Assembly (NCBI RefSeq): GCF_900105255.1
Contig: NZ_LT629763.1
Coordinates: 3,249,001 to 3,313,000 of the forward strand
Source: Halopseudomonas sabulinigri
GTDB lineage: Bacteria; Pseudomonadota; Gammaproteobacteria; Pseudomonadales; Pseudomonadaceae
DNA: 64,000 nt
Direction: 5' to 3'
Under the pieces are notes generated by a model. That model worked only from the letters and a program-made list of their open reading frames with translations, was not told where the DNA came from and searched no databases. The stretch's first letter is position 1. The number at the start of each line of letters is the position of its first letter. A program made the translations under genes and the position numbers. Below are positions 7,782-49,133 of the stretch, one piece after another.

Positions 7782-9449
7782 ATGATGAACACTATCGACA
7801 ATACTGGTCACATGAATGCGGCGCGCAGCGCCTTGGCTATTGCCGTTCTGATCGCCAGTGGCGGCGCCTCTGCGATGCAGATAGATCTGGGTAACCCAGA
7901 TATTCGGATGCGTTGGGATAACACTGTTCGCTACAACCTCGGCATCCGGGCGGAAAGCCAGGACAGCGCGATCATGAACAACCCTAATTTCGACGAGTCT
8001 GATGGCAAGTTTGACCGTGGTGATATCGTCACCAATCGTCTTGACCTGCTGACAGAGGTTGACTTGGCCTACAAGTGGCACTTTGGTGCGAGGGTCAGTG
8101 CCGCCGGCTGGTATGACGATGCCTACAGTGACCGGTCGGTCGATAGCAATGTGCCTGGTTATTCCACCAGCTATAACAATGATAAATACAGCTCCGAAGT
8201 AGAGCGTTACGTCTATGGTCCTTCTGGCGAAATTCTCGATGCCTTCGTGTGGGCTAACTTTGATGTCGGCCAGGTACCGGTGAACGTGAAGGTCGGTCGG
8301 CACACCCAGTATTGGGGGGAGGGCCTGCTGTTTGGTGCTCACGCGATTTCCTATTCGCAGGCTCCTACTGACGCGGTTAAGGCGGTAACCAGTCCAGGGA
8401 TTGAGACCAAGGAGGTCTTTTTGCCGATTGGTCAGGTATCTGCTAAAGCTCAGTTGACCAATGCACTCTCCGTTTCTGCACAGTATTTCTATGAGTGGGA
8501 TCACACTCGCTTCCCCTATGGTGGTACCTATTTTGGTGCTGCTGACCCCTTCTTCGAGGGGCCCGACCGTTTGCCTGCGGCGCCGGGGTTCAACCTACAA
8601 CACGCCGATTCGAAATTTGGTCGCGACTCTGCTAACTGGGGTGTGATGGCCCGCTACGACCTGCAAAGCGTAGGCGCCACGCTGGGTGCCTATTACCGCG
8701 AATTCGACGACTATCAGGCTTGGCTGTCGCCGCAAATCGATATGGCAACCGGCCAGTATCGGTTGGTTTATCCGCGAGGCGTGAAGTTGGTTGGCTTGAG
8801 CTATGCGGGTAACGTTGGCTCGGCCTCCATTGGCGCAGAGGTGTCTTACCGCAAAGGCGGCGCACTTAACGCGACTGGCGTCAGCAACGTGGATGATGAA
8901 GGTCCTCGCGGTAACACCTACCATGCATTGGTAAACGCTGTTTACGGTGTGCCTCGTTTTTGGCTAGCCGAAAGTTCGACGCTGGTTGCCGAGCTGGTAT
9001 ACAGCCACCTGGATAAGGTGACCGAACATGAAGAGTTGTATAAGGGTGAAGGCACCGCCGCCTGTAGAGATCTGCGCAGTGGTGGCGAGGGCGATAAGTC
9101 CGACGGCTGCTCTACTCGTAATTACATGGCGGCGGCAGTGAACTATACCCCCCAGTATTTGGCGATTTTGCCGTCGTGGGATCTGTCTGTGCCTTTGACC
9201 GTGAACTACGGTATTTCTGGTAACGCGGCTAACGCCGGCGGTGGGTCGGAGGGTGCAGTGTCATGGTCGGTCGGCGCCAAGATGACCTACCAGCAACAGC
9301 ACGAATTCAGCTTGCGTTATGCAGATACGATGGCTCAGGAGAAAAACACTATCAACCCGGTCAACGGCCAGACCATGGTAAATGGTAACGGTGCTGTTGG
9401 TGGTACTGACCGTGGTTGGTTGTCGCTCACCTATAAGACATCGTTTTAA
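7782..9449 (+). CDS. DUF1302 family outer-membrane beta-barrel-like protein
   Basis: A 555-residue exported protein. A hydrophobic signal segment (about residues 16-32, ending GGASA) precedes a mature region rich in alternating aromatic residues and Gly/Asn/Tyr. The C-terminus is LSLTYKTSF, a terminal Phe as in many outer-membrane barrels. It belongs by appearance to the DUF1302 family, often encoded next to DUF1329 proteins in clusters for hydrophobic substrates such as terpenoids and steroids. It is the first gene of a seven-gene operon with DUF1329, YCF48-like and MMPL genes, suggesting a trans-envelope system. The exact role (uptake or export) is not established. Confidence 0.85.
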   Translation: MMNTIDNTGHMNAARSALAIAVLIASGGASAMQIDLGNPDIRMRWDNTVRYNLGIRAESQDSAIMNNPNFDESDGKFDRGDIVTNRLDLLTEVDLAYKWHFGARVSAAGWYDDAYSDRSVDSNVPGYSTSYNNDKYSSEVERYVYGPSGEILDAFVWANFDVGQVPVNVKVGRHTQYWGEGLLFGAHAISYSQAPTDAVKAVTSPGIETKEVFLPIGQVSAKAQLTNALSVSAQYFYEWDHTRFPYGGTYFGAADPFFEGPDRLPAAPGFNLQHADSKFGRDSANWGVMARYDLQSVGATLGAYYREFDDYQAWLSPQIDMATGQYRLVYPRGVKLVGLSYAGNVGSASIGAEVSYRKGGALNATGVSNVDDEGPRGNTYHALVNAVYGVPRFWLAESSTLVAELVYSHLDKVTEHEELYKGEGTAACRDLRSGGEGDKSDGCSTRNYMAAAVNYTPQYLAILPSWDLSVPLTVNYGISGNAANAGGGSEGAVSWSVGAKMTYQQQHEFSLRYADTMAQEKNTINPVNGQTMVNGNGAVGGTDRGWLSLTYKTSF

Positions 9450-9497
9450 TAGAGCAGTACTGGCTCCCAGTTAATAAACACAAGAACGGAGATTATT

Positions 9498-10862
9498 ATG
9501 AGATATGCACTCGCTTTCAGCCTGGCTTTAAGTGGTATTTCAGCCAATGCGGTAGCAGCAGTTCCTTCCGAGGAGGCTGCCCAGCTCGGTAAAACACTTA
9601 CCTTGTTTGGAGCTGAACAAGCCGGCAATGAGGCGGGTACTATCCCTCCCTATGAAGGGGGGCTCCGGACCGCCCCTGCCGGTTTTGAACCCGGCAGCGG
9701 CTACTGGGTGAATCCGTACAAGGATGAAGAGCCGCTGTTCCGCATCGACAGCAGTAACTATCAGGAGCATGCAGATAAGCTGAGTGCCGGTCAGTTGGAG
9801 CTGTTGAAGCGTAACCCCGATTATTATCTGGATATCTTTCCAAGTCATCGTACCGCCGCGCTACCACAGGATGTGCTGGATGCTACGGTCCGTAATGCAA
9901 CTACCTGTGAAACGCTGAACAACGGCCTGACGTTGTCGCCTGAATGCCGTGGTGGCGTTCCATTCCCGATCCCTAAGACCGGCCATGAGGTCATGTGGAA
10001 CCAACAGGTTCGTTACAACGACGGTAAATACGGCACTACCACCAGTTCATCCAACAGCTGGTTGGTGGCGTCGAACGGGTCTGTAACCAAGGCATCAGAA
10101 CAGGCTACTTTTGTTGAGCGTCCCTATTATCAGGATGATGTAGAGGGTCGCGATCCGCAAATGTATTCCCGCGTTTACTCGGTCACCAAGGAACCGGCGC
10201 GCCGAGCAGGCGAGCTTACCGGGTATATGGACTACCTTGACCCTACCCAGCAGCCCCGACGCGCCTGGAGCTACACGCCTGGTCAGCGCCGCGTCAAGTT
10301 GGCCCCTGAGTTTGCCTACGACACGCCAGTTGCCAGTATGGGCGGTCTGGAATTGTTCGATGAGCTTTTCATGTTCTCAGGTATGCAGGACCGCTTCGAG
10401 TTCAAGCTGGTCGGCAAAAAAGAGATGTACATCCCGTATAACAGCTATGAGCTGTATTTCGACTGTGATCCAAAAACTCAACTGATGGAAAACCACGTTA
10501 ATCCCGAGTGCGAGCGTTGGGAGCTGCACCGTGTATGGGTCGTTGAGGCCACCCTCAAGGAAGACCGTCGGCATGTTTACAGCAAACGCACCTACTATCT
10601 TGATGAGGATACCTTTGGTGCGGGGCTTTACGATGCCTGGGATCAAAGCGGCCAACTCTATCGTTCGATGATGCTGGGCGGCGTACAGTTTTACGACCAC
10701 GACATTCCCTACATCGTAAAACACTCTATCTACGACTTTAACAAGGGTATGTACGGGCTGATCAATGATGCGCTCAGCGGCGGTTACAAAGTGCTGGACG
10801 CACCGCGCTCCGAACGTGATTTGAACCCAGAAGCAGTGGTGGCACGCGAAACCACCCGGTAA
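9498..10862 (+). CDS. DUF1329 family exported protein (copy 1)
   Basis: A 454-residue secreted protein with a signal peptide (residues 1-20, cut after NAVAA). It resembles the DUF1329 family, which has an outer-membrane lipoprotein-sorting LolB-like fold. Characteristic segments are IPPYEGGLRTAPAGFEPG, RRAWSYTPGQRRVKLAPEF and the C-terminal YDAWDQSGQLYRSMMLGG. A close paralogue (452 residues) is encoded at 20561-21919 on the other strand. The gene follows DUF1302 by 48 nt with an upstream ACGGAG ribosome site. It probably handles a hydrophobic compound or lipid in the periplasm; the substrate is unknown. Confidence 0.88.
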   Translation: MRYALAFSLALSGISANAVAAVPSEEAAQLGKTLTLFGAEQAGNEAGTIPPYEGGLRTAPAGFEPGSGYWVNPYKDEEPLFRIDSSNYQEHADKLSAGQLELLKRNPDYYLDIFPSHRTAALPQDVLDATVRNATTCETLNNGLTLSPECRGGVPFPIPKTGHEVMWNQQVRYNDGKYGTTTSSSNSWLVASNGSVTKASEQATFVERPYYQDDVEGRDPQMYSRVYSVTKEPARRAGELTGYMDYLDPTQQPRRAWSYTPGQRRVKLAPEFAYDTPVASMGGLELFDELFMFSGMQDRFEFKLVGKKEMYIPYNSYELYFDCDPKTQLMENHVNPECERWELHRVWVVEATLKEDRRHVYSKRTYYLDEDTFGAGLYDAWDQSGQLYRSMMLGGVQFYDHDIPYIVKHSIYDFNKGMYGLINDALSGGYKVLDAPRSERDLNPEAVVARETTR

Positions 10863-10875
10863 TTACACCAGTTTG

Positions 10876-10898
10876 GCGCCACCGACGATGGGTGGCGC
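10876..10898 (+). terminator. Possible hairpin after DUF1329
   Basis: GCGCCACC (10876-10883) pairs with GGTGGCGC (10891-10898) across a 7-nt loop. Only a weak U-run follows, so partial termination or mRNA processing inside the operon is more likely than full termination. Confidence 0.35.
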
Positions 10899-10974
10899 TT
10901 GCGTGTTGGACCGTGACAGGCGATGTAATCGCAGTACTCGGCGTTTTGAGCGAGCTGCGTAGAGGATAAAAACA

Positions 10975-12135
10975 ATGACTTTGATCGACCTGATGAGAGG
11001 GTGCCTGCCATGCAGGTTCCCGCGGCTGCTGATGTGCCTGTTTTATGCTGGCTCCATTGCTTCCTATTCAGTTGCCATCTCAGCGATGGCGGCGGAATCG
11101 GAGGCGGTTGAGTCGGACAAGACGGTGTTGTTCGATCCGCTCAGCAATGCCGGTGCCAACCAGTTGATACCACAATCCCAACCGACGCTGAGTGTTGCCC
11201 GAGCGGGTAGCCGGCTTGTCGGTGTAGGACTGCGCGGGTTGATCATGCTGTCCAATGATGAGGGTGAATCCTGGCAGCAAGTTGTTAGCCCGGTGGGTAG
11301 TGATCTTGTGCAGGTTCGCTTTCGTGATGACCAACATGGATGGATCGTTGGCCATGACTCGGTTTTTCTGGCCACGGAGGATGGCGGACAAACGTGGTCC
11401 GTAGTGCTGGATGGCCGTAGTCTCCTGACTTTGCTGAAAAACTACTACTCCAGTGCTAATGAGCTGGAAGAGTTCGAATCTGAAAGCATGCTACGTGAAT
11501 TCGAGCTGGCGATGAGTACCTCGTCCGACCCCTACGTGATGGCTACACCTTTCCTGGATGCCTACATCAATGCACAAGGTGAAGGTTATGTCGTAGGCGC
11601 TTTCGGGATGATCCTTCGTACGACCGATAACGGTCTTCACTGGGTGCCCTGGATAGAGCGGACAGATAACGACCGGCGGATGCATCTATATTCCGTGAGC
11701 ATGTCGGGCGCGGAAACCTTTATCAGTGGTGAGCAGGGGCTGGTAATGCGTCTGGACGATGAGGCGCAGCGCTTTATTAGAACGCCTACGCCTTATACAG
11801 GGACCTTTTTTGGCGTTCAGGCTTCGGCTGACGCGGTTCTGGTCTATGGGCTGCGGGGCAACCTCTACGCGAGTAAGGACCAGGGTGAAACCTGGACCAA
11901 GGTGGAGACTGGCCAGGAATCTTCCATTGTGCAAAGCCTGCCTCTGAGCAAGGGCAGGTCCCTGCTGATCAGTCAACGGGGCGGAGTCATGCAGATAGAC
12001 ACCAAGACACTGGAGCTCACGCAACTGGCTGGTGATTACCGAGGCACGGTTTTCTCCGCTGCGCTACTTAACTCACCGGATCAGTTGCTGCTGGCTCAGT
12101 TTTCCGGCGTGCGTACCACGCAACTCAAGCCTTAA
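10975..12135 (+). CDS. YCF48/BNR-repeat beta-propeller protein, exported
   Basis: A 386-residue protein with an N-terminal hydrophobic export segment (about residues 18-41). BNR/sialidase-like repeats follow, seen as SNDEGESW, ATEDGGQTW, TTDNGLHW and SKDQGETW, each a strand of a beta-propeller. It resembles YCF48 (photosystem II stability/HCF136-like) proteins, which in non-photosynthetic proteobacteria are often encoded between DUF1329 and MMPL transporter genes. It is probably a periplasmic accessory protein of the adjacent MMPL transporter. No catalytic residues were recognised. Confidence 0.85.
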   Translation: MTLIDLMRGCLPCRFPRLLMCLFYAGSIASYSVAISAMAAESEAVESDKTVLFDPLSNAGANQLIPQSQPTLSVARAGSRLVGVGLRGLIMLSNDEGESWQQVVSPVGSDLVQVRFRDDQHGWIVGHDSVFLATEDGGQTWSVVLDGRSLLTLLKNYYSSANELEEFESESMLREFELAMSTSSDPYVMATPFLDAYINAQGEGYVVGAFGMILRTTDNGLHWVPWIERTDNDRRMHLYSVSMSGAETFISGEQGLVMRLDDEAQRFIRTPTPYTGTFFGVQASADAVLVYGLRGNLYASKDQGETWTKVETGQESSIVQSLPLSKGRSLLISQRGGVMQIDTKTLELTQLAGDYRGTVFSAALLNSPDQLLLAQFSGVRTTQLKP

Positions 12136-12256
12136 TTTAACGTGCGATCGACGCTGGTTAGCTGCTTGCGTGGCTGACCCGGATAGCAATAGTCAGGTTG
12201 GCGAGGTGGAAGGGCATGCATAGCGTGTCGCTACGCGTCGATCCTCGGAGATAGAG

Positions 12257-14776
12257 ATGGTCAATCAGAATAATACTAATGGGATGCCAGTCGTCCAAAA
12301 TGTTGAGGATTTCGACAAGAAGTCTGGCGGTCTGTTTGAGCGCTTAATTTTCAGTCACCGAGTCCTGGTTATTCTGTGCTGTCTGGCTGCTACGCTGGTG
12401 CTTGGTTTTTTTGCATCGCGCATTGAGGTGAATGCCAGCTTTGAGCGGATGATTCCGGTCAATAATCCCTATATTCAAAATTATCTGGATCACAAGACCG
12501 AGCTGCCAGGGCTGGGCAACAGCATTCGCGTTGTCGTTGAGAACAAGAACGGAGATATCTACGACCCTGAATACCTGGAGGTGCTTCGCCAAGTGAACGA
12601 CACCCTGTACTTGATACCGGGTGTCGACCGCTCCTGGATGAGGTCGCTCTGGATGCCCATTGTGCGCTGGCGGGAAGTGACCGAGGATGGCATCAGCGGC
12701 GGGGCCGTGATGCCGGCCAACTATGATGGCAGCGAAAGCAGTATACAGGCGCTGCGCCGGAATATTTCGCGCGCCGCTATATCCGGCAGTCTGGTTGCCA
12801 ACGACGGTCAGTCCAGCATGATTGTTGCGCCACTGCAGGATACCAATCCGCAAACGGGGGAGCCGCTGCATTACGGCGATTTTTCCGATCAGCTGGAACA
12901 GAAAATCCGTGCCTACGAAAGTGACTCCATTGGCATCCACATTGTTGGCTTCAGCAAGCTTGTTGGGGATCTGATCGATGGATTGAAAGTAGTGATGCTG
13001 TTCTTCGCCATATCGGTGGTGATCGCATCAATATTTGTCTACCTGTACACCCACTGCTTACGCAGCACGCTGTTGCTGGTGGGAATTGCGGTAACCGGTG
13101 TGATCTGGCTTTTGGGGTTAATGCAGATACTCGGTTACGAACTCGACCCTTACTCGATATTGGTACCCTTCCTGATTTTTGCGATTGGCCTATCGCACGG
13201 CACGCAAAAAATGAATGGCATCCTGCAGGACATCGGCCGCGGCACTCACAAGTATGTCGCTGCGCGCTACACCTTCCGACGTCTTTTTCTGACCGGGCTC
13301 ACCGCGTTGCTGACTAATATTGTCGGTTTTGCAGTACTGGCAATTATCGACATTCCGGTAATCCGCGACCTGGCGTTGACCACCAGTATTGGTGTCGCGG
13401 TCCTGATCTTTACCAAGCTTATTCTTATTCCGGTTGCGCTCTCTTACATTGGAGTGAGTAAGAAAGCGGCGCAAATTGCCATCGATAAAGACCAGGCTGG
13501 ACAGGCCAACAAGAACTGGTTGGGCAGAGTATGGCAAAGGCTGGATTACTTTACCGAGCGAAAATGGGCTCTGATGGCAATCAGTGCTTCTGTTCTCGTC
13601 ACGGCAATCAGCACAGTCTTGATGATGGATTTACAGATTGGGGATCTCGACCCGGGCGCACCGGAGTTGCGCCCGGACTCGCGCTATAACCAAGACAATG
13701 CCTATATAACCTCTCACTATGGACTTTCCAGTGATCAGTTTGCGGTGATCATGAAAACTGGCGTGGACGGCTGCCGCTTTTACCGGCCGTTGCAGACTAT
13801 GGATCAGTTGGCATGGAAGCTTAGACAGACCGAGGGTGTGCAGACCACAAGTTCATTGGCAGACACTGTTCGTGTTGTGTCCTCAGGCATGGCTGAAGGC
13901 AGCGCAAAGTGGCTGACCATCAGTCGTGACCAGGCGATCACCAATGCCTCGGTCGATGCAGCCATGATTTCATCACCTGGCATCACCAATCAGAACTGCT
14001 CAGTAACGCCGTTGGTAGCTTACTTGGCAGACCACAAGGCCGAGACGCTTAACCGTGTGATGGGTGTGGTAGAAGACTTTGCTGCACAGTACAACACTGC
14101 GCCGGATGCCGAGCGTCCGGTAGAGTTTTTGCTTGCAGCCGGCAATGCGGGTATCGAGGCGGCAACCAACATCGAAGTAGAGAAGGGCATTATTACCATG
14201 TACTTCGCGGTATATGGAGCAACTGCGCTGCTTTGCCTGCTCACTTTCAGAAGTATCCGTGCCACCATCGTTGCACTTATTCCCCTGATCATGACGACGA
14301 TTATCTGCAAGGCGCTGATGGTCGTGCTTGGTATTGGGCTGAAGGTGGCGACCCTGCCAGTGATAGCCGTTGGTGTTGGGGTCGGGGTGGATTACGCGCT
14401 TTATTTATTGAGTGTGCAGGTGGCTGTGCAGGAGCGGGGTGAAAGCCTGGCGGTAGCTTATCGCAGGTCACTCGACTTTACCGGGCGTGTAGTTGCGCTT
14501 ATTGGCCTGACCATGGCTGCCGGCGTAATAACCTGGGCTTGGTCTCCTATCAAGTTTCAGGCTGACATGGGCATCCTGCTGACCTTTATGTTCCTCTGGA
14601 ACATGCTCGGTGCGTTGATTTTGATTCCAGCCCTATCGCACTTTCTGCTCAACCCAAAGCAAAGCTCAGATGGCCAAGGCGATAACTCAGAGGAGGCAAA
14701 CGTCTCGCTATCCTCTGGTCAAGTGCGCCATGCGACCGCGTCATCTTACAAGCGTGAAGAGGTAGCAAGTTTTTGA
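12257..14776 (+). CDS. MMPL/RND superfamily transporter
   Basis: An 839-residue inner-membrane protein. One TM helix near residues 31-52 is followed by a large periplasmic domain (about 53-225), then five or more TM helices (about 230-390). A second repeat has a TM near 440, a second periplasmic domain and C-terminal helices (about 640-810). The segment AVGVGVGVDYALYLLSVQ carries the acidic residue typical of MMPL/RND proton pathways. Members move lipids and hydrophobic compounds. The start ATG 12257 has a GGAG ribosome site. Operon context with DUF1302, DUF1329 and YCF48 genes suggests one trans-envelope system. Confidence 0.9.
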   Translation: MVNQNNTNGMPVVQNVEDFDKKSGGLFERLIFSHRVLVILCCLAATLVLGFFASRIEVNASFERMIPVNNPYIQNYLDHKTELPGLGNSIRVVVENKNGDIYDPEYLEVLRQVNDTLYLIPGVDRSWMRSLWMPIVRWREVTEDGISGGAVMPANYDGSESSIQALRRNISRAAISGSLVANDGQSSMIVAPLQDTNPQTGEPLHYGDFSDQLEQKIRAYESDSIGIHIVGFSKLVGDLIDGLKVVMLFFAISVVIASIFVYLYTHCLRSTLLLVGIAVTGVIWLLGLMQILGYELDPYSILVPFLIFAIGLSHGTQKMNGILQDIGRGTHKYVAARYTFRRLFLTGLTALLTNIVGFAVLAIIDIPVIRDLALTTSIGVAVLIFTKLILIPVALSYIGVSKKAAQIAIDKDQAGQANKNWLGRVWQRLDYFTERKWALMAISASVLVTAISTVLMMDLQIGDLDPGAPELRPDSRYNQDNAYITSHYGLSSDQFAVIMKTGVDGCRFYRPLQTMDQLAWKLRQTEGVQTTSSLADTVRVVSSGMAEGSAKWLTISRDQAITNASVDAAMISSPGITNQNCSVTPLVAYLADHKAETLNRVMGVVEDFAAQYNTAPDAERPVEFLLAAGNAGIEAATNIEVEKGIITMYFAVYGATALLCLLTFRSIRATIVALIPLIMTTIICKALMVVLGIGLKVATLPVIAVGVGVGVDYALYLLSVQVAVQERGESLAVAYRRSLDFTGRVVALIGLTMAAGVITWAWSPIKFQADMGILLTFMFLWNMLGALILIPALSHFLLNPKQSSDGQGDNSEEANVSLSSGQVRHATASSYKREEVASF

Positions 14777-17526: not shown

Positions 17527-18204
17527 TTAGCAAGGTTTGATAATTGCGGCGAGAATGAAATTCGCCGCATGCTCTCGCCAAATTTTCATACCCTCTACGG
17601 ACCTGGTATCGAAACCCACCAGAACCGAGAGGGTGTAGTGGTTGGTAAAGCCGCCAGACATCAATAGCGCTGATGTGGCTAGCAGAAAACGGGCATCTAC
17701 ATCCGCACGGAAAATTCCGTCAGATATCCCACGCTGCAGTAGCGAGGCAAACTTGGCTTTTAGCGCCGGCGATTGACCGGAGAAACTGTTGACCTGATCG
17801 TCGTGAGCTGACTCATGATAGCGGATACCTTCCAGCGCCAATGAGCCAAGTAGTGGGTCGTTCATGTACTGCTCAAAGGTGCAGTCGAGCAGCGTCAAGA
17901 GGGCCTGTTGTGGCGGTAGGTGTTCTACATTCAGTGCGACGAGCTCATCCATTATTTGCCGTGACGAGTCATCCAGCACTGTTGTAAATAGGGATTCCTT
18001 GGAGCCGTAGTAATGGTAAACCAGCTGCTTGGTTACTCCTGCCTGCCGCGCTATATCCTCCATTCGCGCCCCGGCCAGACCTTTTTGGGCAAAGATCTTC
18101 TTGGCCGCTGAAAGCAGACGCTCAAGGGTATCCCGCTTGCTGGGTTCGGCGCGAGTCGAGAAAGACTGGAGGTCATCAGTAGGCATGTCACACTCTTGAT
18201 ACAT
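17527..18204 (-). CDS. TetR-family transcriptional regulator
   Basis: 225 residues. The N-terminal TetR helix-turn-helix is clear (ARMEDIARQAGVTKQLVYHYYGSKESLF, residues about 46-73), followed by an all-helical ligand domain resembling FadR/AcrR-type repressors. It is divergent from the SDR at 18301, whose promoter it likely controls along with its own. An alternative start is ATG at 18186. The ligand is unknown; a CoA thioester or diterpenoid would fit the context. Confidence 0.85.
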   Translation of the reverse strand: MYQECDMPTDDLQSFSTRAEPSKRDTLERLLSAAKKIFAQKGLAGARMEDIARQAGVTKQLVYHYYGSKESLFTTVLDDSSRQIMDELVALNVEHLPPQQALLTLLDCTFEQYMNDPLLGSLALEGIRYHESAHDDQVNSFSGQSPALKAKFASLLQRGISDGIFRADVDARFLLATSALLMSGGFTNHYTLSVLVGFDTRSVEGMKIWREHAANFILAAIIKPC

Positions 18205-20560: not shown

Positions 20561-21919
20561 TTAGCGTTGAGATTCGCGCATCACGATGGCTTCGGGGTTT
20601 AGCTCACGTTCAGTGCGAGCTTCGGTGAGAACCTGATAGCCGCCATCCATCCCGTCGTTGACGATGCCGTACATGCCTTTATTAAAGTCGTACATGGCGT
20701 GCTTCACGACGTAGGGGATGTCGTGGTCATAGAACTGGACACCTCCAAGCATCATCGAGCGATACAGCTGGCCGTTCTGATCCCAGGCATCGTACAGGCC
20801 GGCACCATAGGTATCTTCATCGAGATAGTAGGTGCGCTTGCTGTAAACGTGACGCATACCTGGTTTCAAGGTTGCTTCAACCTCCCATACACGGTGCAGC
20901 TCCCAGCGCTCGCATTCGGGGTTTACATGAGAGGTGCGGAACTGGTCCTCACAATCGAAGTAGAACTTGTAGGTGTTGTATGGAATCAGCATCTCTTTGC
21001 GCCCAACAAGCTTGAAATCAAACCTATCCTGCACGCCTGAGAACATGAATAGTTCGTCGAACAGCTCCAAGCCGCCCATGCTTCCCACCGGAGTGTCGTA
21101 ATTGAACTCGGGGGCGAGTTTGATGCGCCGCTGTCCAGGGGTGTAGCTCCAGGCGCGGCGCGGCTTGTCGGTCGGATCGATAAAGTCCATCAGGCCAGTG
21201 AGCTCTCCCGCTTTGCGTGCGGGTTGCTTGGTCAGCGAGTAAACACGGTAAAAAAGATCCTCCGGCCGGCCTGGTACGTCTGTCTGGTAGTAAGGGCGCT
21301 CAACGAACGTAGCTTGGTTGGCAGACTGGGTTACTGACCCGTTTCTATCAACGACCCAGGTGTTGGACGAAGAGGTGGTGGTACCAAACTTGCCGTCGTT
21401 ATAACGCACGAGCAGGTTCCAGATTACTTCATTGCCTGTCTGGGGGATCGGAAAGGGTAAACCGCCACGACAATTTGGCTCAATCGCCAAGCCGTCCTTC
21501 AGGGTATTGCAGGTAGTTGCGTTACGCACCGTTGCGTCCAGCACTTCCTGCGGGTAGGCAGCAGATCTGTGGCTGGGGTAAATGTCCATGTAGTAATCGG
21601 GGTTGCGCTTCAATACCTCTATCTGCCCCGCGCTAAGCAGGTGCTCGTGCTCGCTTAGATTGGCCGCAGTTATTCGATACAGGGGTTTGTCCGCAGCATA
21701 GGGGTCTTTCCAAAACCCTGTACCTGGCTCGAATCCCGGGGGGGAGGTTCGCAGCCCCCCCTCATAGGCCGGAATGCTGCCATCGGCGTTCGCGGCCTGA
21801 ATAGCGCCCAATGGTGTGAGGGTATCGCCGATAGCGCTGGCTTCATCCGGGCTCACTGCGGCCAGAGATGTGGCGGACAGGCCGCCAACTAGCAATCCAA
21901 TAGCAATTTTCAGTTTCAT
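20561..21919 (-). CDS. DUF1329 family exported protein (copy 2)
   Basis: 452 residues with signal peptide (about 1-20, MKLKIAIGLLVGGLSATSLAA). It closely parallels the 454-residue DUF1329 protein at 9498-10862: the same IPAYEGGLRTSPPGFEPG, NATTCNTL, RRAWSYTPGQRRIKLAPEF and RSMMLGGVQFYDHDIPY blocks. The two copies lie in opposite orientation about 10 kb apart. This one heads a minus-strand unit with a hydrolase and a VOC protein and lacks its own DUF1302 partner. Function presumed to be periplasmic handling of a hydrophobic molecule. Confidence 0.88.
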   Translation of the reverse strand: MKLKIAIGLLVGGLSATSLAAVSPDEASAIGDTLTPLGAIQAANADGSIPAYEGGLRTSPPGFEPGTGFWKDPYAADKPLYRITAANLSEHEHLLSAGQIEVLKRNPDYYMDIYPSHRSAAYPQEVLDATVRNATTCNTLKDGLAIEPNCRGGLPFPIPQTGNEVIWNLLVRYNDGKFGTTTSSSNTWVVDRNGSVTQSANQATFVERPYYQTDVPGRPEDLFYRVYSLTKQPARKAGELTGLMDFIDPTDKPRRAWSYTPGQRRIKLAPEFNYDTPVGSMGGLELFDELFMFSGVQDRFDFKLVGRKEMLIPYNTYKFYFDCEDQFRTSHVNPECERWELHRVWEVEATLKPGMRHVYSKRTYYLDEDTYGAGLYDAWDQNGQLYRSMMLGGVQFYDHDIPYVVKHAMYDFNKGMYGIVNDGMDGGYQVLTEARTERELNPEAIVMRESQR

Positions 21920-22237: not shown

Positions 22238-22280
22238 AATAATTCCACATGTAGATTGAAATTCTACAATTGGAATTATT
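22238..22280. promoter_or_regulatory. 43-bp dyad symmetry, candidate operator
   Basis: Outer arms AATAATTCCA (22238-22247) and TGGAATTATT (22271-22280) are perfectly complementary. Inner arms TGTAGA (22250-22255) and TCTACA (22263-22268) are also perfect and concentric, so 17 of 21 pairs match. Two nested sites are typical of TetR-like or GntR-like operators. Confidence 0.5.
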
Positions 22281-22337: not shown

Positions 22338-22384
22338 GGCGCTGGTTATCCGTTTTACGCTCGGTAAAACGGATAACCAGCGCC
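22338..22384. repeat. Perfect 21-bp inverted repeat with 5-nt loop
   Basis: The arm at 22338-22358 begins GGCGCTGGTTATCC. It is exactly complementary to the arm at 22364-22384, with loop GCTCG. No T-run follows, so it is not a standard intrinsic terminator. It may be a structured leader, a small RNA hairpin or the remnant of a mobile palindrome. Confidence 0.6.
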
Positions 22385-22555: not shown

Positions 22556-24145
22556 ATGAATAACAAAAATACCGATTTCGACGTGATTGTCGTGGGCGGG
22601 GGAAGCAATGGCCTTTCAGCGGGTTGCTATCTCGGCCTTGAGGGCAAGCGTGTTCTTGTTCTAGAGGCGTTGGACAAGGTGGGTGGGATGGCGTCGTCCG
22701 GCTATCTCATCCCTGAGGCGCCGGAGCACCTGGTGCATCCTTGTGCGCTCGACATGATGTCGATGCGCGTGCACTCCCATGTACCGGAGGAGCTAGGCTT
22801 GGCCGACCACGGCTTTGACTCTATCGAGTTGTCGCCGGGTTATGTCTATTTACACCCCGATGGAAGCTCGTTGATCTTTTGGCGAGATCGGCAAAAAACA
22901 GCAGATGAAATTCGTCGGTATAGCCACAAGGATGCTGCTGCATTTCTTGAGTTCATGGATGTTATCGACATGTTCATGGATATAGCCCTGCCTATGATGC
23001 GGGTAGATCCCGCGCGGTTCAACTTGACAAGTAAGCTTAAAGTTCTAGGCGTGGCGCTGAAGAACCGGCGCCTTAAGCCTGAACTCATGGCGCTGATGAC
23101 AGGGTCCGCTCATCAGGCTGCCAAGGAACGTTTCGAGCACCCGGTGACCATTTCCGCGATGTGCGCGCTGACGGGACTGGCAGGTGATATTCGGGCTGAT
23201 GGCGGCGGTATCTACTATGCGCTACTTGGGTTTCTGCACCGCTTTGGCGTGGGACGGGTCAGGGGAGGTATGCAGCAATTGAGTAACGCAATGTGCTCGC
23301 GTCTCGAGGAGCTGGGTGGCAAGGTGATTACGTCTGCCACTGTGACTGAAATCATCTCTTCGCAGGGCAAAATCGAAGGCGTTCGACTTGCTGATGGGCG
23401 CACTTTCACTGCGCCCGCGGTGATAGCAGGTTGTCACCCCAAGGTAGCGCTGGAAATGGTAACCCCGGGCGAAATGCCTGCTCACCTGCTCACGCGGGTA
23501 GCCATGGCTCCTGCCAACGCGAAGGGCTCGGGCCCACTGAAAGTGGATGTCGCGCTTGACGGTTTGTTGTCGGTTCCACGCTATGAGGCCATCCGCGGCG
23601 ACGGAATTGATTTACGCAAGACGGTCCTGTTGATCGGTACGGAAGACGCAGTACTTGAAAGCTTCGCCGCCTGTGAGCGTGGCGAAGTCCCCAGGTACCC
23701 CTACATTACGCTTGCGGTCCCTAGTGCGGCGGATCCGACTCAAGCGCCCGCCGGCCAGGACATCGTATATGTCTATCCGCCAGTCATGCCTGTCAACCCC
23801 AGTGCAGGCTGGGATGCGCTAAGGGAGACTGTGGCGGACCAGGTGTTGCGCCAATTGGCTGACTACGTGGATGGCATCGATGGTCATGTCATTGGCCGCC
23901 GTATCGAGGCAGCACCGGACTTCACAGAACGGCTAAATACAGTGAATGGCTGTGTAGTCCATATCGACACCACCACCATGCGTTCGAGCACTATGCGGCC
24001 TGCCTATGGGCTGGGTGGCGATACTCTCCCGGTTTCCGGGCTGTATCTGGGTAGCGCAGGCAGCCACCCGGGCGGCGGAGTCAATGGTATGGCCGGCAAG
24101 CTTGCAGCCAAGCGGGTGTCCACGTTTTTGTCGAAGAATTCCTAA
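22556..24145 (+). CDS. Phytoene-desaturase-like FAD oxidoreductase
   Basis: 529 residues. The N-terminal Rossmann FAD motif VIVVGGGSNGLSAGCYLGLEGKRVLVLEA (about residues 10-38) is that of the phytoene desaturase/amine-oxidase flavoprotein superfamily. The C-terminal FAD motif is LYLGSAGSHPGGGVNGMAGKLAA. Relatives introduce double bonds or oxidise alicyclic rings. No carotenoid genes (crtB, crtE) are nearby. It heads an operon with a P450 (75 nt downstream), an unknown protein and a SnoaL-like protein, so a role in desaturating or aromatising a terpenoid ring is plausible. Start ATG 22556 has an AGGGAG site. Confidence 0.82.
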   Translation: MNNKNTDFDVIVVGGGSNGLSAGCYLGLEGKRVLVLEALDKVGGMASSGYLIPEAPEHLVHPCALDMMSMRVHSHVPEELGLADHGFDSIELSPGYVYLHPDGSSLIFWRDRQKTADEIRRYSHKDAAAFLEFMDVIDMFMDIALPMMRVDPARFNLTSKLKVLGVALKNRRLKPELMALMTGSAHQAAKERFEHPVTISAMCALTGLAGDIRADGGGIYYALLGFLHRFGVGRVRGGMQQLSNAMCSRLEELGGKVITSATVTEIISSQGKIEGVRLADGRTFTAPAVIAGCHPKVALEMVTPGEMPAHLLTRVAMAPANAKGSGPLKVDVALDGLLSVPRYEAIRGDGIDLRKTVLLIGTEDAVLESFAACERGEVPRYPYITLAVPSAADPTQAPAGQDIVYVYPPVMPVNPSAGWDALRETVADQVLRQLADYVDGIDGHVIGRRIEAAPDFTERLNTVNGCVVHIDTTTMRSSTMRPAYGLGGDTLPVSGLYLGSAGSHPGGGVNGMAGKLAAKRVSTFLSKNS

Positions 24146-24220
24146 GTCGCCTGTATCGCTTACCCGCGATTACAAGCGTGACTATAACAAAAGACCTGAA
24201 GGTCACAGGGAGAACCATTA

Positions 24221-25498
24221 ATGTCAGCGGAAATGAACGAGCTTGATATCGAGCAGGCTTATCACGCGGTTTCAGATACCTATCTTGGCTCAGCAGTCGA
24301 TATCCACGGGCTGTGCAGGGATAAGCGGATTAACGACCCAGTTATGCGTGGCGACTTCGTAGATAGTTACCTGGGGGTGCCAACCAATGCTGGTGCCAAG
24401 GCGGCCAAGTGCGTTGTCACGCTGTTCAAGCACAAAGACGTGATGGCGGTGCTGCGCGACGCAGAAACCTTCACCAGCGGTTTTATTGCCGAAGGGCTGG
24501 GCGCGTTCTTCGACGGTTTGATTGTGTTAGCCATGGACGGTGAACAGCATCGTCGTACACGGGCCCTGTTGCAGCCAGTGTTCATGCCGGAAACGGTCAA
24601 CAAGTGGCGACCGGAAATCGACAGGGTCATTCGGGAAGAGTTTCTGCTGCCAATGCAGGCAGACAAGAAAGCCAACCTGATGGATTTCGGGTTGTATTTC
24701 CCCATCCGTGAGATGTACGCGCTGATGGGCTTTCCAAGCGACGACCCAGATAAATTCAAACAATACGCTACTTGGGCTCTCGCGCTGGTGGCCGCCAACC
24801 AGATCGATCCGGAGAAAGCGCGTATCTATGGTGCCTTTGCCGGTAAAGCGGTTAAGAACCTGTATGACGCGATAATGCAAATTGTGGTGACAAAACGGGC
24901 TGCTGGCGCAAAGGGCGATGACTTGATCAGTCGAATGATCAACGCTGAATATGAAGGCCGTGCGCTGGATAACCATGAGGTAACTACTTTCGTGCGCTCT
25001 TTGTTACCCGCCGCTGGAGAAACAACCACGCGCACCTTCAGTTCGATCATGACACTGTTGCTTGAGCGGCCAGAGCTGCTGGAACGAGTGAAAAGAGATC
25101 GGGGTTTGATTGGCAAGTTGATCGACGAAACTGTGCGTTATGAGCCTGTAGCAACTTTCAAGGTTCGCCAGGCTTCGAGAGACGTCGAGGTGGGTGGCGT
25201 TCTGGTTCCCAAGGGGGGCTTGGTTCAGTGCATGGTGATATCCGCCAACCGAGACGAAGATGTCTTCGACAACGCAGATCAGTTTGATATTGATCGAAAG
25301 GTGAAGCCTTCCTTCGGCTTCGGCTGGGGGGCGCACATGTGCATCGGTCAGTTTGTTGCCAAGGTCGAAATCAATTGCGCGATCAACGCAATTCTGGATC
25401 TGTTTCCAAACATCCGATTGGACCCAAGTATGCCTGCGCCTGTCATCGCAGGGGCTCAACTGCGAGGTGCGAAATCCATTCATGTGATTTGGGATTGA
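24221..25498 (+). CDS. Cytochrome P450 (copy 1)
   Basis: 425 residues, soluble bacterial P450. The I-helix motif AGETT is at 265-269, ExxR at 303-306 (ETVR), and the haem-binding loop FGWGAHMCIG has its Cys ligand at 374. It is highly similar to the second P450 at 54346-55620, sharing TSGFIAEGLGAFFDGLI, VTTFVRSLLPAAGETTTRTF and CIGQFVAK. P450s of the CYP226 family (DitQ, TdtD) hydroxylate abietane diterpenoids in Pseudomonas; I suspect this family but have not checked. Electrons probably come from the 2Fe-2S ferredoxin and reductase at 28.4-30.0 kb. Confidence 0.93.
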   Translation: MSAEMNELDIEQAYHAVSDTYLGSAVDIHGLCRDKRINDPVMRGDFVDSYLGVPTNAGAKAAKCVVTLFKHKDVMAVLRDAETFTSGFIAEGLGAFFDGLIVLAMDGEQHRRTRALLQPVFMPETVNKWRPEIDRVIREEFLLPMQADKKANLMDFGLYFPIREMYALMGFPSDDPDKFKQYATWALALVAANQIDPEKARIYGAFAGKAVKNLYDAIMQIVVTKRAAGAKGDDLISRMINAEYEGRALDNHEVTTFVRSLLPAAGETTTRTFSSIMTLLLERPELLERVKRDRGLIGKLIDETVRYEPVATFKVRQASRDVEVGGVLVPKGGLVQCMVISANRDEDVFDNADQFDIDRKVKPSFGFGWGAHMCIGQFVAKVEINCAINAILDLFPNIRLDPSMPAPVIAGAQLRGAKSIHVIWD

Positions 25499-25524
25499 TG
25501 CAACCTTAGCGGAGGAATACCAGT

Positions 25525-26556
25525 ATGAAATCTTACAAAAACATCCCCGAGCGTGGCGACTTTGTTTACCAGCAGCTAGTTGGCCCATGCAAAACCACTG
25601 GGCCGGCGTTGAATGAAACACGCTCATTCTTCGGCCTGTTGCTGAGCAAGAGCATGCCTTTTGGCTCTGTACGTGATGATGAGGGGCACATCTACTCATT
25701 TGTTCGCTCGGTAATGGCCCCTACAGGTACGCCCAACCCGACGCGGTTTTTTTATCAGTCTACGCGGATTGACGGCCAGCATATTCGTATGGATACCGAG
25801 CGAATGGCAAAGCAGGCGTTGACGCCAATGCCAACGCAGACACTGGATGGGGATACGGTGCGCTGGACCAGCCTACCCGGAGAAGAGGGCAACCCCTGGT
25901 TACTGGAAGCCTCTGCTGAGCATATCAAGTGGGTGGAAGAGGGGCTGTATGAGCTGCAGGGGAAGCCGGTTGGCTGCGGTATGCAATGGTATTTGCCTGG
26001 CGTTGAGTGGGGCACATTTTATGTCTCGCAACTGTGGAGCCTTTCCGGCGTGTGCGAAGGACGGGAAGTGAAAGGCCTGATGGCACTGGACCAAGTGTAT
26101 ATGGCAGAAGGTGGAGCCATTCATTTCAAGAAAGACTTGGTGGTAAACAACAAAATGCACGTCATCTGGTGGTCTTTTGCCACGGTATACAAGGACGGTA
26201 CATTCGACTCGGGATCATTCATGGTCGGCCATGACAACCTTGGTTACGCCATCTTCAACAATGAGAAAGGCGAGGTGCGTACTACCACCGATATCGAGGG
26301 CGTGGCAGTGCATAAGGACGGCAGTTACTTTCTGGACCATGCGCGAATTGTTTTGGACGGCAGTGAAGAGTGGGAGTTTCTGCCGGACGAAAAGGGTGAA
26401 ATGGCGGACTTTGTTGGCGGCTTTCCAATTACAGCCCAGCAGGAAGGTCGCTGGCGCAGAGTAGGGGATACACGCGAACCGGACCACTGGCTGGCGTGGG
26501 GAGAGTCCGATCGCCGTAATGGGTCAGCGCGTAACGTGCGCGGTGCGGATCTATGA
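25525..26556 (+). CDS. Uncharacterised protein in the P450 operon
   Basis: 343 residues, starting at ATG 25525 after a strong GGAGGAA site. No signal peptide or TM helix is evident. It is rich in Trp, Gly and Tyr with long alternating beta-like stretches (WYLPGVEWGTFYVSQLWSLSG, then MHVIWWSFATVYKDGTFDSG). This hints at a lipocalin or AttH/CrtC-like beta fold, but I do not recognise the family with confidence. It sits between the P450 and a SnoaL-like gene in the same operon and probably binds or converts the same substrate. Confidence 0.75.
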   Translation: MKSYKNIPERGDFVYQQLVGPCKTTGPALNETRSFFGLLLSKSMPFGSVRDDEGHIYSFVRSVMAPTGTPNPTRFFYQSTRIDGQHIRMDTERMAKQALTPMPTQTLDGDTVRWTSLPGEEGNPWLLEASAEHIKWVEEGLYELQGKPVGCGMQWYLPGVEWGTFYVSQLWSLSGVCEGREVKGLMALDQVYMAEGGAIHFKKDLVVNNKMHVIWWSFATVYKDGTFDSGSFMVGHDNLGYAIFNNEKGEVRTTTDIEGVAVHKDGSYFLDHARIVLDGSEEWEFLPDEKGEMADFVGGFPITAQQEGRWRRVGDTREPDHWLAWGESDRRNGSARNVRGADL

Positions 26557-26605
26557 CAGTCTCAATCGCCCGACTGTTCGAGGGCATAAACAGGAGCGGA
26601 ATGTG

Positions 26606-26959
26606 ATGCCAGGCTTAAACCAAAAAGACATAGACGCCTTTTTACACGGCCAAATCGCCTGTTGGAACTCAGGTAACCGTGAAGGCTTCTTCGAGCATTA
26701 TCGGCAGGTTGCCCCAAAGGGCTTGAGCATTGAGTACGTTGGGCGCCCGGAGACGGATGGCTGGCCTGTACTTGAAGCTATGTGGGACCAGCAAAATAGC
26801 CGCTTTTCGGTGGAGGTAGAAGTGAGTATTCTCGGCCCGAATGAAGCAGCCTGTCACCATCGCAATGTGATGCGGGACGGCAGTGGCTCAATTGAGACGA
26901 TCGAGCTGTACCGGTTCGAGGCAGATACAATGAGCGTGCGTTATTTTATCAAACAATAG
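26606..26959 (+). CDS. SnoaL/NTF2-like protein
   Basis: 117 residues from ATG 26606 with AGGAGCGG upstream; an ORF opening at 26519 overlaps the previous gene and is not preferred. The small alpha+beta fold (FLHGQIACWNSGNREGFFEHY...GWPVLEAMWDQQ) resembles SnoaL/NTF2-like isomerases and lyases, including ketosteroid-isomerase-type folds. Catalytic residues were not assigned. Last gene of the flavoprotein-P450 operon, followed by a strong terminator. A cyclase or isomerase role on the P450 product is possible. Confidence 0.72.
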   Translation: MPGLNQKDIDAFLHGQIACWNSGNREGFFEHYRQVAPKGLSIEYVGRPETDGWPVLEAMWDQQNSRFSVEVEVSILGPNEAACHHRNVMRDGSGSIETIELYRFEADTMSVRYFIKQ

Positions 26960-26979
26960 TGTTTGCTCTACTGAGCCAC

Positions 26980-27009
26980 AAAAAACCGCTGCCTTGGCAG
27001 CGGTTTTTT
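26980..27009. terminator. Bidirectional intrinsic terminator
   Basis: AAAAAACCGCTGCC, loop TT, GGCAGCGGTTTTTT: a perfect stem with an A-tract on one side and a T-tract on the other. It separates the convergent SnoaL-like gene and the minus-strand MFS gene. Confidence 0.92.
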
Positions 27010-27038
27010 GTGGGCCATACTCACGCTAGGGCGAAGCT

Positions 27039-31370: not shown

Positions 31371-31471
31371 GATGTTGCTGATGTCAGAATATTTGATCTG
31401 GTCTGCGATGTCTATCCGATCATTGTGAGATTTGAACACAAAAACAATAAGTGACTAAAGGAAAACGTTGT

Positions 31472-33121
31472 ATGCGATGGCTCAGTAGCTTTTCCATGGG
31501 TGCCAAGCTCCTTTTTGCTCCTGCCCTCATTGTGGTTTTACTCATTGCTGTCTCTGCGATTGCGTACGACGGTCTCGCCCGTCAGCAGGGTGTGCTGCGT
31601 GAGGTCGAAGAGGTTCGCTTCCACCAGTACCAGCGCGCACTAGAAATCGCGGCGGCTTCTCAGGCGGCTATGGTGGGTTCCTACGCGGCGGTGGTTCAGT
31701 TGATCCAGACCGAAGGCAACGCGTCGCAGGAGGAAATGCAGTTTTATGTAGAGGATATGCGCGCCAGTGTTCATGACATGAGTACTGGAATCGAGCGTGG
31801 TATGGCTGACAGTGGGGCGTTTAGTGAAGAAGAGCAGACGCTTTACCAAACCATGGGCGAGCAGGCCAAGGTCTTTGCGCAAGGAGTCGACGATCTGGCT
31901 GAAGCGGCGTTGACCTCACCTTACCAGGCGCCCTCATTGTTGGGTTATGTGCGTGCGGATTATACCCGTCTGCAAGGCCTGCTTTCTCGCATGCTTGTAC
32001 TCCAGGAAGAGTTGTCTGCGCAGGCTTTTGCTACAGCAAACATGACAGCTGCATCGGTGACCAGGGCGCTTGCGATCGCCGTTGTTATTGCCATTGTCTT
32101 GGCTCTGCTGGTTGGGTTGTTGATGCGCTATCAGGTGCTGCGCTCCATCAAAGCCATCGAGCGAGCGGCGGTGAAGCTCAAGGATGGCGACCTGACTCAT
32201 AGAGTGGAAGTGATAGGACGTGATGAAATCGCACAGACAGCGGTGGCTTTCAATGCGCTGATTACCAGTTTGCAGACGGCTGTAGAGCAGGTTAAGCGTG
32301 TTGCCGACTCTGTGGGAGCCTCGGCAGAGGAGTTGGTGGTTACTTCCAACCATGTCGCCGTTGGTGCAAATGAACAGGCCAGTGCCGCCGTTCAAGCATC
32401 GTCCACTGTCGAGCAGATGAGCCAGGGCATCGAATCTATTTCCTCCCACGCGGAAGGTTTGCGCAATTCGGCAGCGGATAGTTTGAAAGGCGCGGAAGAG
32501 GGGCGGTTCGCACTCAATCGGTTGCTTGATGAGATTCTGCGAGTCAGGCAAGCATTCCATGCGATTACGGCCTCGGTAGGGGACTTTGTCGCCAGCACCA
32601 CCGCCATTACTGACAGTATCAACCGGGTCAAGGAGCTTTCGGCACAAACGAATTTGCTGGCGCTCAATGCGGCGATAGAGGCAGCGCGTGCAGGGGAGAG
32701 CGGTCGTGGATTCAGCGTGGTGGCTGATGAAGTAAGGAATCTAGCCCAGCGCTCTGCGGTCGCGGCCAACTCGATTAATGAGCTGACGGGGGCACTGGAA
32801 GGGCAGTCTGCCAGCGTTAGTGTGGTTCTGGGCGAGGGTGCTTCTGCCCTTGATAGCAGTCAGGAGTTACTAGAAGAGCTGGAAAAGGTGCTGCTGGAAG
32901 CCGCGCGACTGGTGGGTGCCTCGAGCACCGGCGTCAGTGAGATTGCCGCTGCGGTGCAGGTCCAGAATGAGGGTAGCAAGGAAATTTCCCTGGGTATTGA
33001 GCGTATCGCGAAGATGGCTGAGGAGGGGGACCAGATTTCGCACCAGGTCTCCGCTTCTGTTGCTTCACTGCGCGTGATCGCAGAAGAACTTGCTCTATCA
33101 GTGAGGCACTTCAGAACCTGA
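31472..33121 (+). CDS. Methyl-accepting chemotaxis protein
   Basis: 549 residues from ATG 31472 (AAAGGA site; an upstream GTG at 31451 is less likely). TM1 is near residues 10-32, then a periplasmic helical (4HB-like) sensor domain, and TM2 near 190-213. HAMP follows ([19 protein letters not shown]...), then a long signalling coiled coil whose tip contains [35 protein letters not shown]. No C-terminal methyltransferase-docking pentapeptide is seen. Its position beside the dit core suggests sensing of the substrate or an intermediate. Confidence 0.92.
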
Positions 33122-34448: not shown

Positions 34449-35390
34449 ATGGATATTATTGGCATTGGCTATCTGGGCTTTGAAGCTACGGACTTGGATG
34501 CATGGCGTGACTATGGTCCGTCAGTGATGGGTTTCGGGATGGGCAAAAATCCTGATAGCGATCCCGATTCGGTTTATTTTCGTATAGATGACCGGCGTCA
34601 TCGCTTTGCCTTTCACCCAGGTGATGTGGACCGTCTGGCCTATATTGGCTGGGAAGCGAAAGGTCGTATGGAGTACAAGCAAGCCTTGGCGCGTTTCCGT
34701 GAGGAAGGGGTCGATTTTGAAGTTGGCGATCAGGCGCTGTGTGAAATGCGCGGCGTCAAAGAGTTAATTCGATTTTTTGATCCAGTCGGGTTTCAGCACG
34801 AATTATTCTATGGACAAAAGTGGACGCCGGACTCCTTTGTGGCTGGTCGGCGACATGGTGGGTTCCTCGCCAACCACCGGGGGTTGGGTCATGTCGTGTT
34901 AATGGCCCCTGAGTACTCTGATGAGTTGGAGCACTTTCTTATCAATATCATGGGCTTTCATTGGTACGGATCTGGCGCAGGCAAGGGGCGCACGGGCTTT
35001 TTCCGTTCCAAACTGAACACTTACACCAGCCATGACATTGCGTATGGTCACGCGCCGGGCCGTATGGGAATACAGCACATTGGTTTATTCGTAAGCAGTA
35101 TTAGGGATGTAGGTGAAACCTACGATCTCGTCAAAAAGCGTGAGCTGCCAATGATGATGACGCTGGGGCAACATGCGCAAGATCCCCATGTATCTTTCTA
35201 CCACTTCACGCCGTCAGGTTTTGCTTTTGAGTGCATAGGCGAGATTGAGCCGTGGCACGATGATGGCTTTGAGCTAAATCCTGAGGTGATGAGTGTTTGG
35301 GGGCATGAAATTGTAGGCCCGATACTTGGGCCAAGTGTCAAAACACCTGAAGAGGTTCGTGATCCGGCTTTTAGCCAGAAGAAAGGCTAA
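34449..35390 (+). CDS. ditC: Type I extradiol ring-cleavage dioxygenase
   Basis: 313 residues, two VOC modules. Iron ligands H148 (GLGHVVL), H210 (GIQHIGLF) and E261 (FAFECIG) match the 2-His-1-carboxylate set of BphC-type enzymes. H195, H242 and Y251 match the second-sphere catalytic residues. It should meta-cleave a catechol. In the dit pathway that is 7-oxo-11,12-dihydroxydehydroabietic acid. HsaC-like steroid enzymes are relatives, but steroid genes (KstD, KshA) are not seen. It lies between the SDR and an FAH-family gene. Confidence 0.9.
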   Translation: MDIIGIGYLGFEATDLDAWRDYGPSVMGFGMGKNPDSDPDSVYFRIDDRRHRFAFHPGDVDRLAYIGWEAKGRMEYKQALARFREEGVDFEVGDQALCEMRGVKELIRFFDPVGFQHELFYGQKWTPDSFVAGRRHGGFLANHRGLGHVVLMAPEYSDELEHFLINIMGFHWYGSGAGKGRTGFFRSKLNTYTSHDIAYGHAPGRMGIQHIGLFVSSIRDVGETYDLVKKRELPMMMTLGQHAQDPHVSFYHFTPSGFAFECIGEIEPWHDDGFELNPEVMSVWGHEIVGPILGPSVKTPEEVRDPAFSQKKG

Positions 35391-42344: not shown

Positions 42345-42374
42345 TGTACATTTATTAAAAATTTGTTTATATTT
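42345..42374 (+). promoter_or_regulatory. A-tract promoter element, copy 3 (upstream of ditA1)
   Basis: Begins TGTACATTTATT, continues AAAAATTTGTTT. It aligns ungapped with 40479 and 45389 and ends 45 nt before the ditA1 start. A small palindrome TACAT-TTT-ATGTA (42336-42348) overlaps its left edge. Confidence 0.5.
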
Positions 42375-42419
42375 TTCCCGACTGCAGCCGGCATCATTTC
42401 AAATACCCTGGAGGCGAGC

Positions 42420-43817: not shown

Positions 43818-43850
43818 CCTTCTCCATATCAATAAAAATAGGAGTCTCTT

Positions 43851-47925: not shown

Positions 47926-47983
47926 GACTCATCTCCTTTCAGTGCGGCTCAACATGCGAGCCTGACGCTATTATTTTTGATAG

Positions 47984-47996
47984 AGAATTGAATTCT
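47984..47996. promoter_or_regulatory. Palindrome AGAATT-G-AATTCT in the ligase/TetR promoter region
   Basis: Perfect 13-bp odd palindrome 59 nt before the CoA ligase start and 110 nt before the TetR start. A candidate operator for the neighbouring TetR protein. Confidence 0.45.
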
Positions 47997-48106
47997 ACAT
48001 TGTATTTTTTGACCTGTCTCTACTGAGAGTTGAACAGAAAGTACTGAATGTGACTATATGTCGTGGTAGTATTGCTCTAATGAATGTTTTAAAGGGAGCT
48101 TGAGTG

Positions 48107-48808: not shown

Positions 48809-49133
48809 GGTCGAGTTCATCTATTTCTTGCATGGTGCCGGGACGCTTTGTGTCTTGGCATGCTCCCTCAGCCGCTTCCTGTGGGCTCTGTGTGGTCCTT
48901 AATTGACCTACCCTGAAGCCAGGGTTCCAGTAGTTCCTTCCGCATAAGTTCTTATTGCTATTTTGCGTGTTCGCCTGATCGAGTGTGGCGCTCTGGAAGA
49001 CCTGTGCGCGGAAAAAATAATTTGAACAGTTTTGCAGTATTTGATCATTTTGTATTATGCTTTAGCGTATGAGCAAATTCTGTATTGAGAATTTAATGGC
49101 TCAGCTAACTAAAACAAAATCGAGGTCCAAAAC
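48809..49133. other. 325-nt intergenic region upstream of the amidohydrolase operon
   Basis: No gene was recognised. The AT-rich right part (49020-49110) likely holds the promoter and contains the palindrome at 49075-49094. The left part shows no convincing terminator. Confidence 0.6.
49075..49094. promoter_or_regulatory. 20-bp palindrome AAATTCT-N6-AGAATTT (site S4)
   Basis: AAATTCT, GTATTG, AGAATTT: perfect 7-bp arms, ending 39 nt before the amidohydrolase start. It is the best match to the shared core with sites S1 to S3. Confidence 0.6.

Follow-up and report, generated by a model that had tools for sequence, protein, structure and literature searches.

A CrtI-type flavoprotein of a dit gene cluster as a candidate ring C aromatase in abietane catabolism

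The phytoene-desaturase-like flavoprotein encoded within the 64,000-nucleotide stretch of Halopseudomonas sabulinigri DNA analysed here (the window) very probably belongs to the abietane degradation pathway. Whether it is a CrtI-type desaturase that was recruited to abietane catabolism and aromatises ring C of 7-oxo-palustric acid is a question on which we place the chances as even, and its position, a common control site and its fold make it the best candidate gene to test for the aromatisation step. The gene is the first of a four-gene operon (22556–26959), listed here with the repeat that follows it:

22556–24145, forward strand: CrtI/CrtO-like FAD flavoprotein, candidate C-ring desaturase or aromatase (ORF, NCBIfam and Pfam matches, AF2 model and co-occurrence with DitA1)
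24221–25498, forward strand: CYP226A-type cytochrome P450, assigned as DitU-type from gene order and a tree
25525–26556, forward strand: protein predicted to adopt the two-domain lipocalin fold of AttH/CrtC, possible hydratase, lyase or isomerase (AF2 model and VIA)
26606–26959, forward strand: small conserved protein of about 117 aa, NTF2/SnoaL-like by eye only (its homologues start near 26606)
26976–27013, no strand: 18-bp symmetrical inverted repeat flanked by convergent genes, putative operon terminator acting in both directions

The flavoprotein ORF begins with an ATG start, encodes 529 aa and has exactly the ends given in the preliminary description, whose designation of the product as phytoene-desaturase-like is also upheld by its FAD motifs and by the CrtI-type fold of its model. 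The N-terminal dinucleotide-binding motif VGGGSNG is located at residue 13, and GSAGSHPGGGVNG at residue 499 is a C-terminal motif of the CrtI type. The top NCBIfam profile is that of the beta-carotene ketolase CrtO, which aligns from end to end but scores 228 bits where the cut-off is 1000, and the crtI_fam profile gives 128 bits, under its cut-off of 238. Amine-oxidase and FAD families of Pfam also match, and Amino_oxidase (PF01593) exceeds its cut-off. The closed 4.03-Mb genome encodes one copy. About 80 proteins of other genomes are 57–99% identical to it, so this is not a chance ORF, and its nearest named relatives are from Halopseudomonas.

The AF2 model of the flavoprotein (pLDDT 83, low near the FAD-binding C-terminus), like the other structure predictions, was made from alignments built without plasmid-collection rows. 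Its best match is the gamma-carotenoid desaturase 4rep (VIA Z 34.2, rmsd 2.8, 466 residues), below which further CrtI-type and amine-oxidase-type flavoproteins are found. The predicted fold is that of a CrtI-type FAD desaturase, a type of protein that also includes isomerases and ketolases. With the phytoene and gamma-carotenoid desaturases of this type (4dgk, 4rep) the protein shares a near-full-length fold, the FAD motifs and, as proposed here, the dehydrogenation of an isoprenoid, but structural alignments give 14–20% identity and the gene is located in a catabolic dit cluster. The positions corresponding to the proposed catalytic residues D149 and R148/R152 of PaCRTI fall within a weakly aligned, gapped region of the flavoprotein alignment; D149 is the proposed catalytic base of CrtI (PMC3382138).

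The CrtO and CrtI profiles, as the top family-level matches, might suggest that the gene serves carotenoid synthesis or is a passenger with no link to abietanes. This is very improbable, as the protein remains under every carotenoid family cut-off and occurs with DitA1 in 36 of 36 genomes. No carotenoid pathway was found in the genome, and a carotenoid role was rejected on the grounds that a genome-wide search returned no gene of the phytoene/squalene-synthase family (PF00494). The earlier statement that the gene does not lie with carotenoid genes is correct to this extent, but it missed the AttH/CrtC fold predicted for the third gene of the operon.

The P450 gene on the same strand begins 75 bp 3' of the flavoprotein gene and is followed by the 343-aa gene and the small gene, in agreement with the earlier claim that flavoprotein and P450 are co-operonic. 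A divergent TetR gene stands between the two in many other genomes, so the operon link is lineage-specific while the neighbourhood is not. The 343-aa product has no Pfam matches. Its AF2 model (pLDDT 75) matches AttH (2ich, VIA Z 17.0), 25-phosphosteroid lyase (16.9) and kievitone hydratase (14.8), far above the lower rows (Z < 8), and it also resembles pericyclases. The same AttH structure served as template for the modelling of the CrtC hydratase (PMC4717167). The predicted folds of the flavoprotein and its AttH-like neighbour resemble a pairing of desaturase with hydratase or lyase, though a common fold is no proof of function. The ORF of the small fourth gene reaches upstream to 26519, its homologues begin near 26606, and a Pfam search of its product gave nothing.

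This composition suggests a second route to an aromatic ring, in which the DitU-type P450 would hydroxylate the substrate and the AttH/CrtC-fold protein would eliminate water, leaving a side task to the flavoprotein. Such a route is consistent with the likeness of the AttH-like model to the lyase, the hydratase and the pericyclases and with the standing of its gene as the most constant neighbour of the flavoprotein gene, which it adjoins at two loci (L051 and L086) with no P450 homologue intervening. It is nevertheless improbable, because a conserved flavoprotein of desaturase fold would be left without a job and a lipocalin-fold protein by itself has no redox chemistry.

The genes that identify the surroundings of the operon are listed below.

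34449–35390, forward strand: DitC-type extradiol dioxygenase (homology and cluster comparison)
42363–44411, forward strand: DitA1A2-type ring-hydroxylating dioxygenase, alpha and beta (homology to reference genomes)
46294–54211, no single strand: ditJ-ditP-like block (order as in BKME-9 and LB400)
54346–55620, forward strand: second CYP226A-type P450, DitQ-type by gene order, with a tree

Sequence comparison identifies the window as a true abietane (dit) gene cluster that holds both the CYP226A-type P450s and the extradiol dioxygenase. It is near-collinear with 442–497 kb of a P. abietaniphila BKME-9 contig and shares its genes, rearranged, with 597–680 kb of chromosome 3 of P. xenovorans LB400, a region that fits the published 80-kb abietane cluster (PMC6210171). 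The DitA1A2-type dioxygenase is 67–90% identical across the reference genomes (BKME-9 86%, LB400 74%). A DitA1-like dioxygenase and CYP226A-type P450s are present in all 14 flavoprotein-bearing reference genomes, a set that was picked for the flavoprotein. The flavoprotein itself is encoded in the BKME-9 (60%) and LB400 (70%; chromosome 3, 661092–662675) clusters, which match the window in their genes and gene order but differ in operon structure and in the position of the palindrome described below. In BKME-9 its gene falls outside the stretch matched to named dit genes and was presumably omitted from the published 19-gene dit set. This BKME-9 flavoprotein (L068, 10001–11581) and those of three further loci (L070, L078 and L086) are only about 60% identical to that of the window and form a separate tree group, while their neighbours show as much similarity as in other Pseudomonas; from the sequences, the gene looks to have been replaced in this lineage.

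The ditJ-ditP-like block encodes a CoA ligase, a TetR protein, an amidohydrolase, an FAH protein, a 3-hydroxyacyl-CoA dehydrogenase, a thiolase and a carboxymuconolactone-decarboxylase-like protein, and the gene order from ligase to P450 is common to the window, BKME-9 and LB400. An extra glutathione-peroxidase-like gene (53672–54211) precedes the DitQ-type P450 in the window, and no such gene is found there in BKME-9 or LB400. The P450s of the window were labelled by the ditJ-ditQ naming, which we take to follow gene order. The BKME-9 block from ligase to P450 has eight genes, which equals the number of letters from ditJ to ditQ, and the P450 at 54346 was therefore assigned as DitQ-type. The P450 adjacent to the flavoprotein is 63% identical to it and was assigned as DitU-type because LB400 has exactly two such P450s. 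The P450 tree places the two groups apart, with the LB400 copy clustering with that of the window. Gene order, tree, elimination and gene naming together indicate that the operon P450 is probably the orthologue of DitU rather than of DitQ.

Several other genes of the window are worth recording. A DUF2889 protein (44591–45325, reverse strand) is encoded between the DitA2-type gene and the next SDR gene, and occupies the same place in P. resinovorans. Consecutive DUF1302, DUF1329, YCF48-like and MMPL-family genes (7782–14776) look like machinery that exports or imports hydrophobic compounds, and a second DUF1329 gene (20561–21919) is 71% identical to the one in that run. A chemotaxis receptor (31451–33121) and a Cache-domain protein (61502–62365), inside or beside the cluster, may be involved in resin-acid sensing.

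Upstream of the operon are two features that may control it.

17527–18204, reverse strand: TetR-family regulator, candidate palindrome reader (in most Pseudomonas its homologue and the DitU-type P450 are divergently oriented)
22338–22384, no strand: perfect 21-bp inverted repeat with a 5-nt spacer (47 bp), putative TetR operator, 184 bp 5' of the flavoprotein gene

The conserved core of the palindrome, CCGTTTTACgctcgGTAAAACGG, lies at 22350–22372 inside the inverted repeat. A matrix trained on P450-upstream sites only gave one match in the window, 184 bp before the flavoprotein gene (score 22.3), and two matches in 0.96 Mb of shuffled sequence. As a pattern with at most one mismatch the palindrome has one site in the 4.03-Mb genome, before the flavoprotein gene, and with one mismatch it has one site in the LB400 genome, before the DitU-type P450. 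The DitU-type P450 is preceded by the palindrome in both LB400 and Pseudomonas, where the gap between the divergent TetR and P450 genes carries it as TCGTTTGAC-N5-GTCAAACGA. This strict Pseudomonas form was not found in the window at three mismatches, and the form present there is degenerate. In some beta-proteobacteria and two Pseudomonas the flavoprotein and DitU-type P450 genes are each preceded by a palindrome, and in Azospirillum and on a Caulobacter plasmid it stands 5' of the AttH-like gene and the flavoprotein gene. LB400 and BKME-9 have it at the P450 only, with none before the flavoprotein gene. The TetR regulator may bind this palindrome.

An imperfect inverted repeat, AATAATTCCACATGTAGA / TCTACAATTGGAATTATT, is located at 22238–22280 in the same intergenic region and may be a site that serves the divergent DUF1329 gene. 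On the plasmid of Caulobacter sp. FWC26 (L015, 10899–13563), the AttH-like gene (65%) lies 74 bp before the flavoprotein gene (40%) with the palindrome upstream, and neither a P450 nor a dioxygenase is annotated nearby.

Co-occurrence was examined through a DitA1 search (E <= 1e-200) that covered 398 genomes each of Pseudomonadaceae and Burkholderiaceae. The 36 positive genomes were picked by DitA1 alone and include LB400 and the genome of the window itself; all 36 encode the flavoprotein with an identity of at least 60%, and all 36 have DitU-type P450 matches. A wider Burkholderiales sample added no further DitA1 genomes. Nine flavoprotein orthologues (at least 80% identity) came from 148 genomes of the family sampled without selection, and each of them lies in a DitA1-positive genome. 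Within the fetched flanks of 84 flavoprotein loci, the DitU-type P450 lies within 10 kb in 74 and the AttH/CrtC-fold gene does so in 78, counts that are not independent because many loci come from close relatives. Two loci in Pelomonas and Rubrivivax (L065 and L091) have the DitU-type P450 and the flavoprotein in dit clusters, and no DitQ-type P450 was found in either genome. As every DitA1 genome has both the flavoprotein and the DitU-type P450, co-occurrence does not separate a role for abietic acid only from a common one, and it also fits a step shared by all abietanes.

Such a shared step would be catalysed by a desaturase acting elsewhere, on ring A or B or on a ring-cleavage product, for all abietanes including dehydroabietic acid. 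This is rather unlikely, though it would account for the flavoprotein in all tested DitA1-positive genomes and for LB400, where the gene has a divergent promoter region with SDR and extradiol genes and no palindrome. It also draws on a second flavoprotein, about 29–30% identical. In all nine genomes that carry a pair of DitA1-type dioxygenases (G070, G156, G173, G183, G225, G241, G251, G347 and G553) its gene lies no more than a few kb from the second of these, and in P. resinovorans (L170, 38130–44105, on G151:C14), where it is 31% identical to that of the window, it belongs to a single run of genes together with an extradiol dioxygenase, an amidohydrolase and a DitA-type dioxygenase. The second set suggests that CrtI-like flavoproteins are generally paired with DitA-type dioxygenases, and it is also consistent with a step after ring cleavage. 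Action elsewhere fits poorly with the steady neighbours of the flavoprotein gene, which are the DitU-type P450 and the gene of AttH/CrtC fold, and with the palindrome, otherwise a feature of the DitU-type P450, that stands before the gene in the window and related genomes.

The aromatisation of 7-oxo-palustric acid to 7-oxo-dehydroabietic acid is an inferred step of the published pathway (PMC6891630). That non-aromatic abietanes are aromatised before dioxygenation by an enzyme without a name, as had been stated beforehand, agrees with the literature: PMC6891630 and PMC13063091 name no enzyme for the step, a ditQ mutant still breaks down non-aromatic acids (PMC6891630), and DitQ and DitA alone are reported with defined steps in resin-acid breakdown by BKME-9 (PMC13063091). 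The literature was also searched for phytoene-type genes linked to the breakdown of resin acids, and none turned up.

In the proposed mechanism the DitU-type P450 and a dehydrogenase would oxidise C7 of non-aromatic abietanes to the ketone. From the resulting 7-oxo-palustric acid the flavoprotein would then take two hydrogens at C11–C12, the hydride passing to FAD and the proton to a base, and ring C would become aromatic. The product, 7-oxodehydroabietic acid, would be the substrate of the DitA dioxygenase, and the reduced FAD would be reoxidised by O2 or a quinone, both of which are acceptors of CrtI (PMC3382138). The substrate, regiochemistry and electron acceptor in this scheme are those we infer. 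The earlier proposal of a C-ring aromatase is partly supported by the dit cluster, the desaturase fold, the adjacent DitU-type P450 and the palindrome, but its choice of abietic or palustric acid as substrate gives way to 7-oxo-palustric acid as the likeliest. The idea is strengthened by the operon, the complete co-occurrence with DitA1, the two genomes that keep the gene with the DitU-type P450 but have no DitQ-type P450, the second flavoprotein and dioxygenase set, and the lack of a phytoene-synthase family gene in the genome. Somewhat more tentatively, and at a little below even chances, the flavoprotein, the DitU-type P450 and the AttH/CrtC-fold protein may form one regulated module that aromatises ring C and is conserved wherever DitA1 was found here.

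A redox-neutral role is also conceivable, in which the flavoprotein would interconvert abietic, neoabietic, levopimaric and palustric acids like CrtISO or anaerobic CrtI, with aromatisation spontaneous or elsewhere. CrtI isomerises carotenes without oxygen (PMC3382138), and the double bonds of abietic acid must shift to give a palustric-type diene (PMC6891630). A flavin isomerase is not required, however, because the published epoxide rearrangement already leads to 7-oxo-palustric acid (PMC6891630), and we regard this role as quite improbable.

Precedent for desaturation of ring C by the flavoprotein is found in CrtU, the beta-ring desaturase of isorenieratene synthesis, which is likewise a flavoprotein desaturase that aromatises a terpenoid ring. 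CrtU groups with CrtP and CrtQ and not with CrtI (PMC2889829), and is likened to the window flavoprotein by description only. The Delta24-steroid desaturase of Sterolibacterium denitrificans also performs flavin-dependent desaturation of an isoprenoid in catabolism; it was rejected as a relative, being a two-subunit enzyme with covalent FMN that is unrelated to phytoene desaturases (PMC11061730).

A single named candidate gene, which the best-studied strains carry, can now be put forward for the aromatisation of resin acids, along with a predicted partner protein and a putative control site. Non-aromatic resin acids make up the bulk of fresh conifer resin. If the proposal is true, the CrtI fold would gain the catabolic aromatisation of a tricyclic diterpenoid, and the enzyme would be a tool for rosin conversion.
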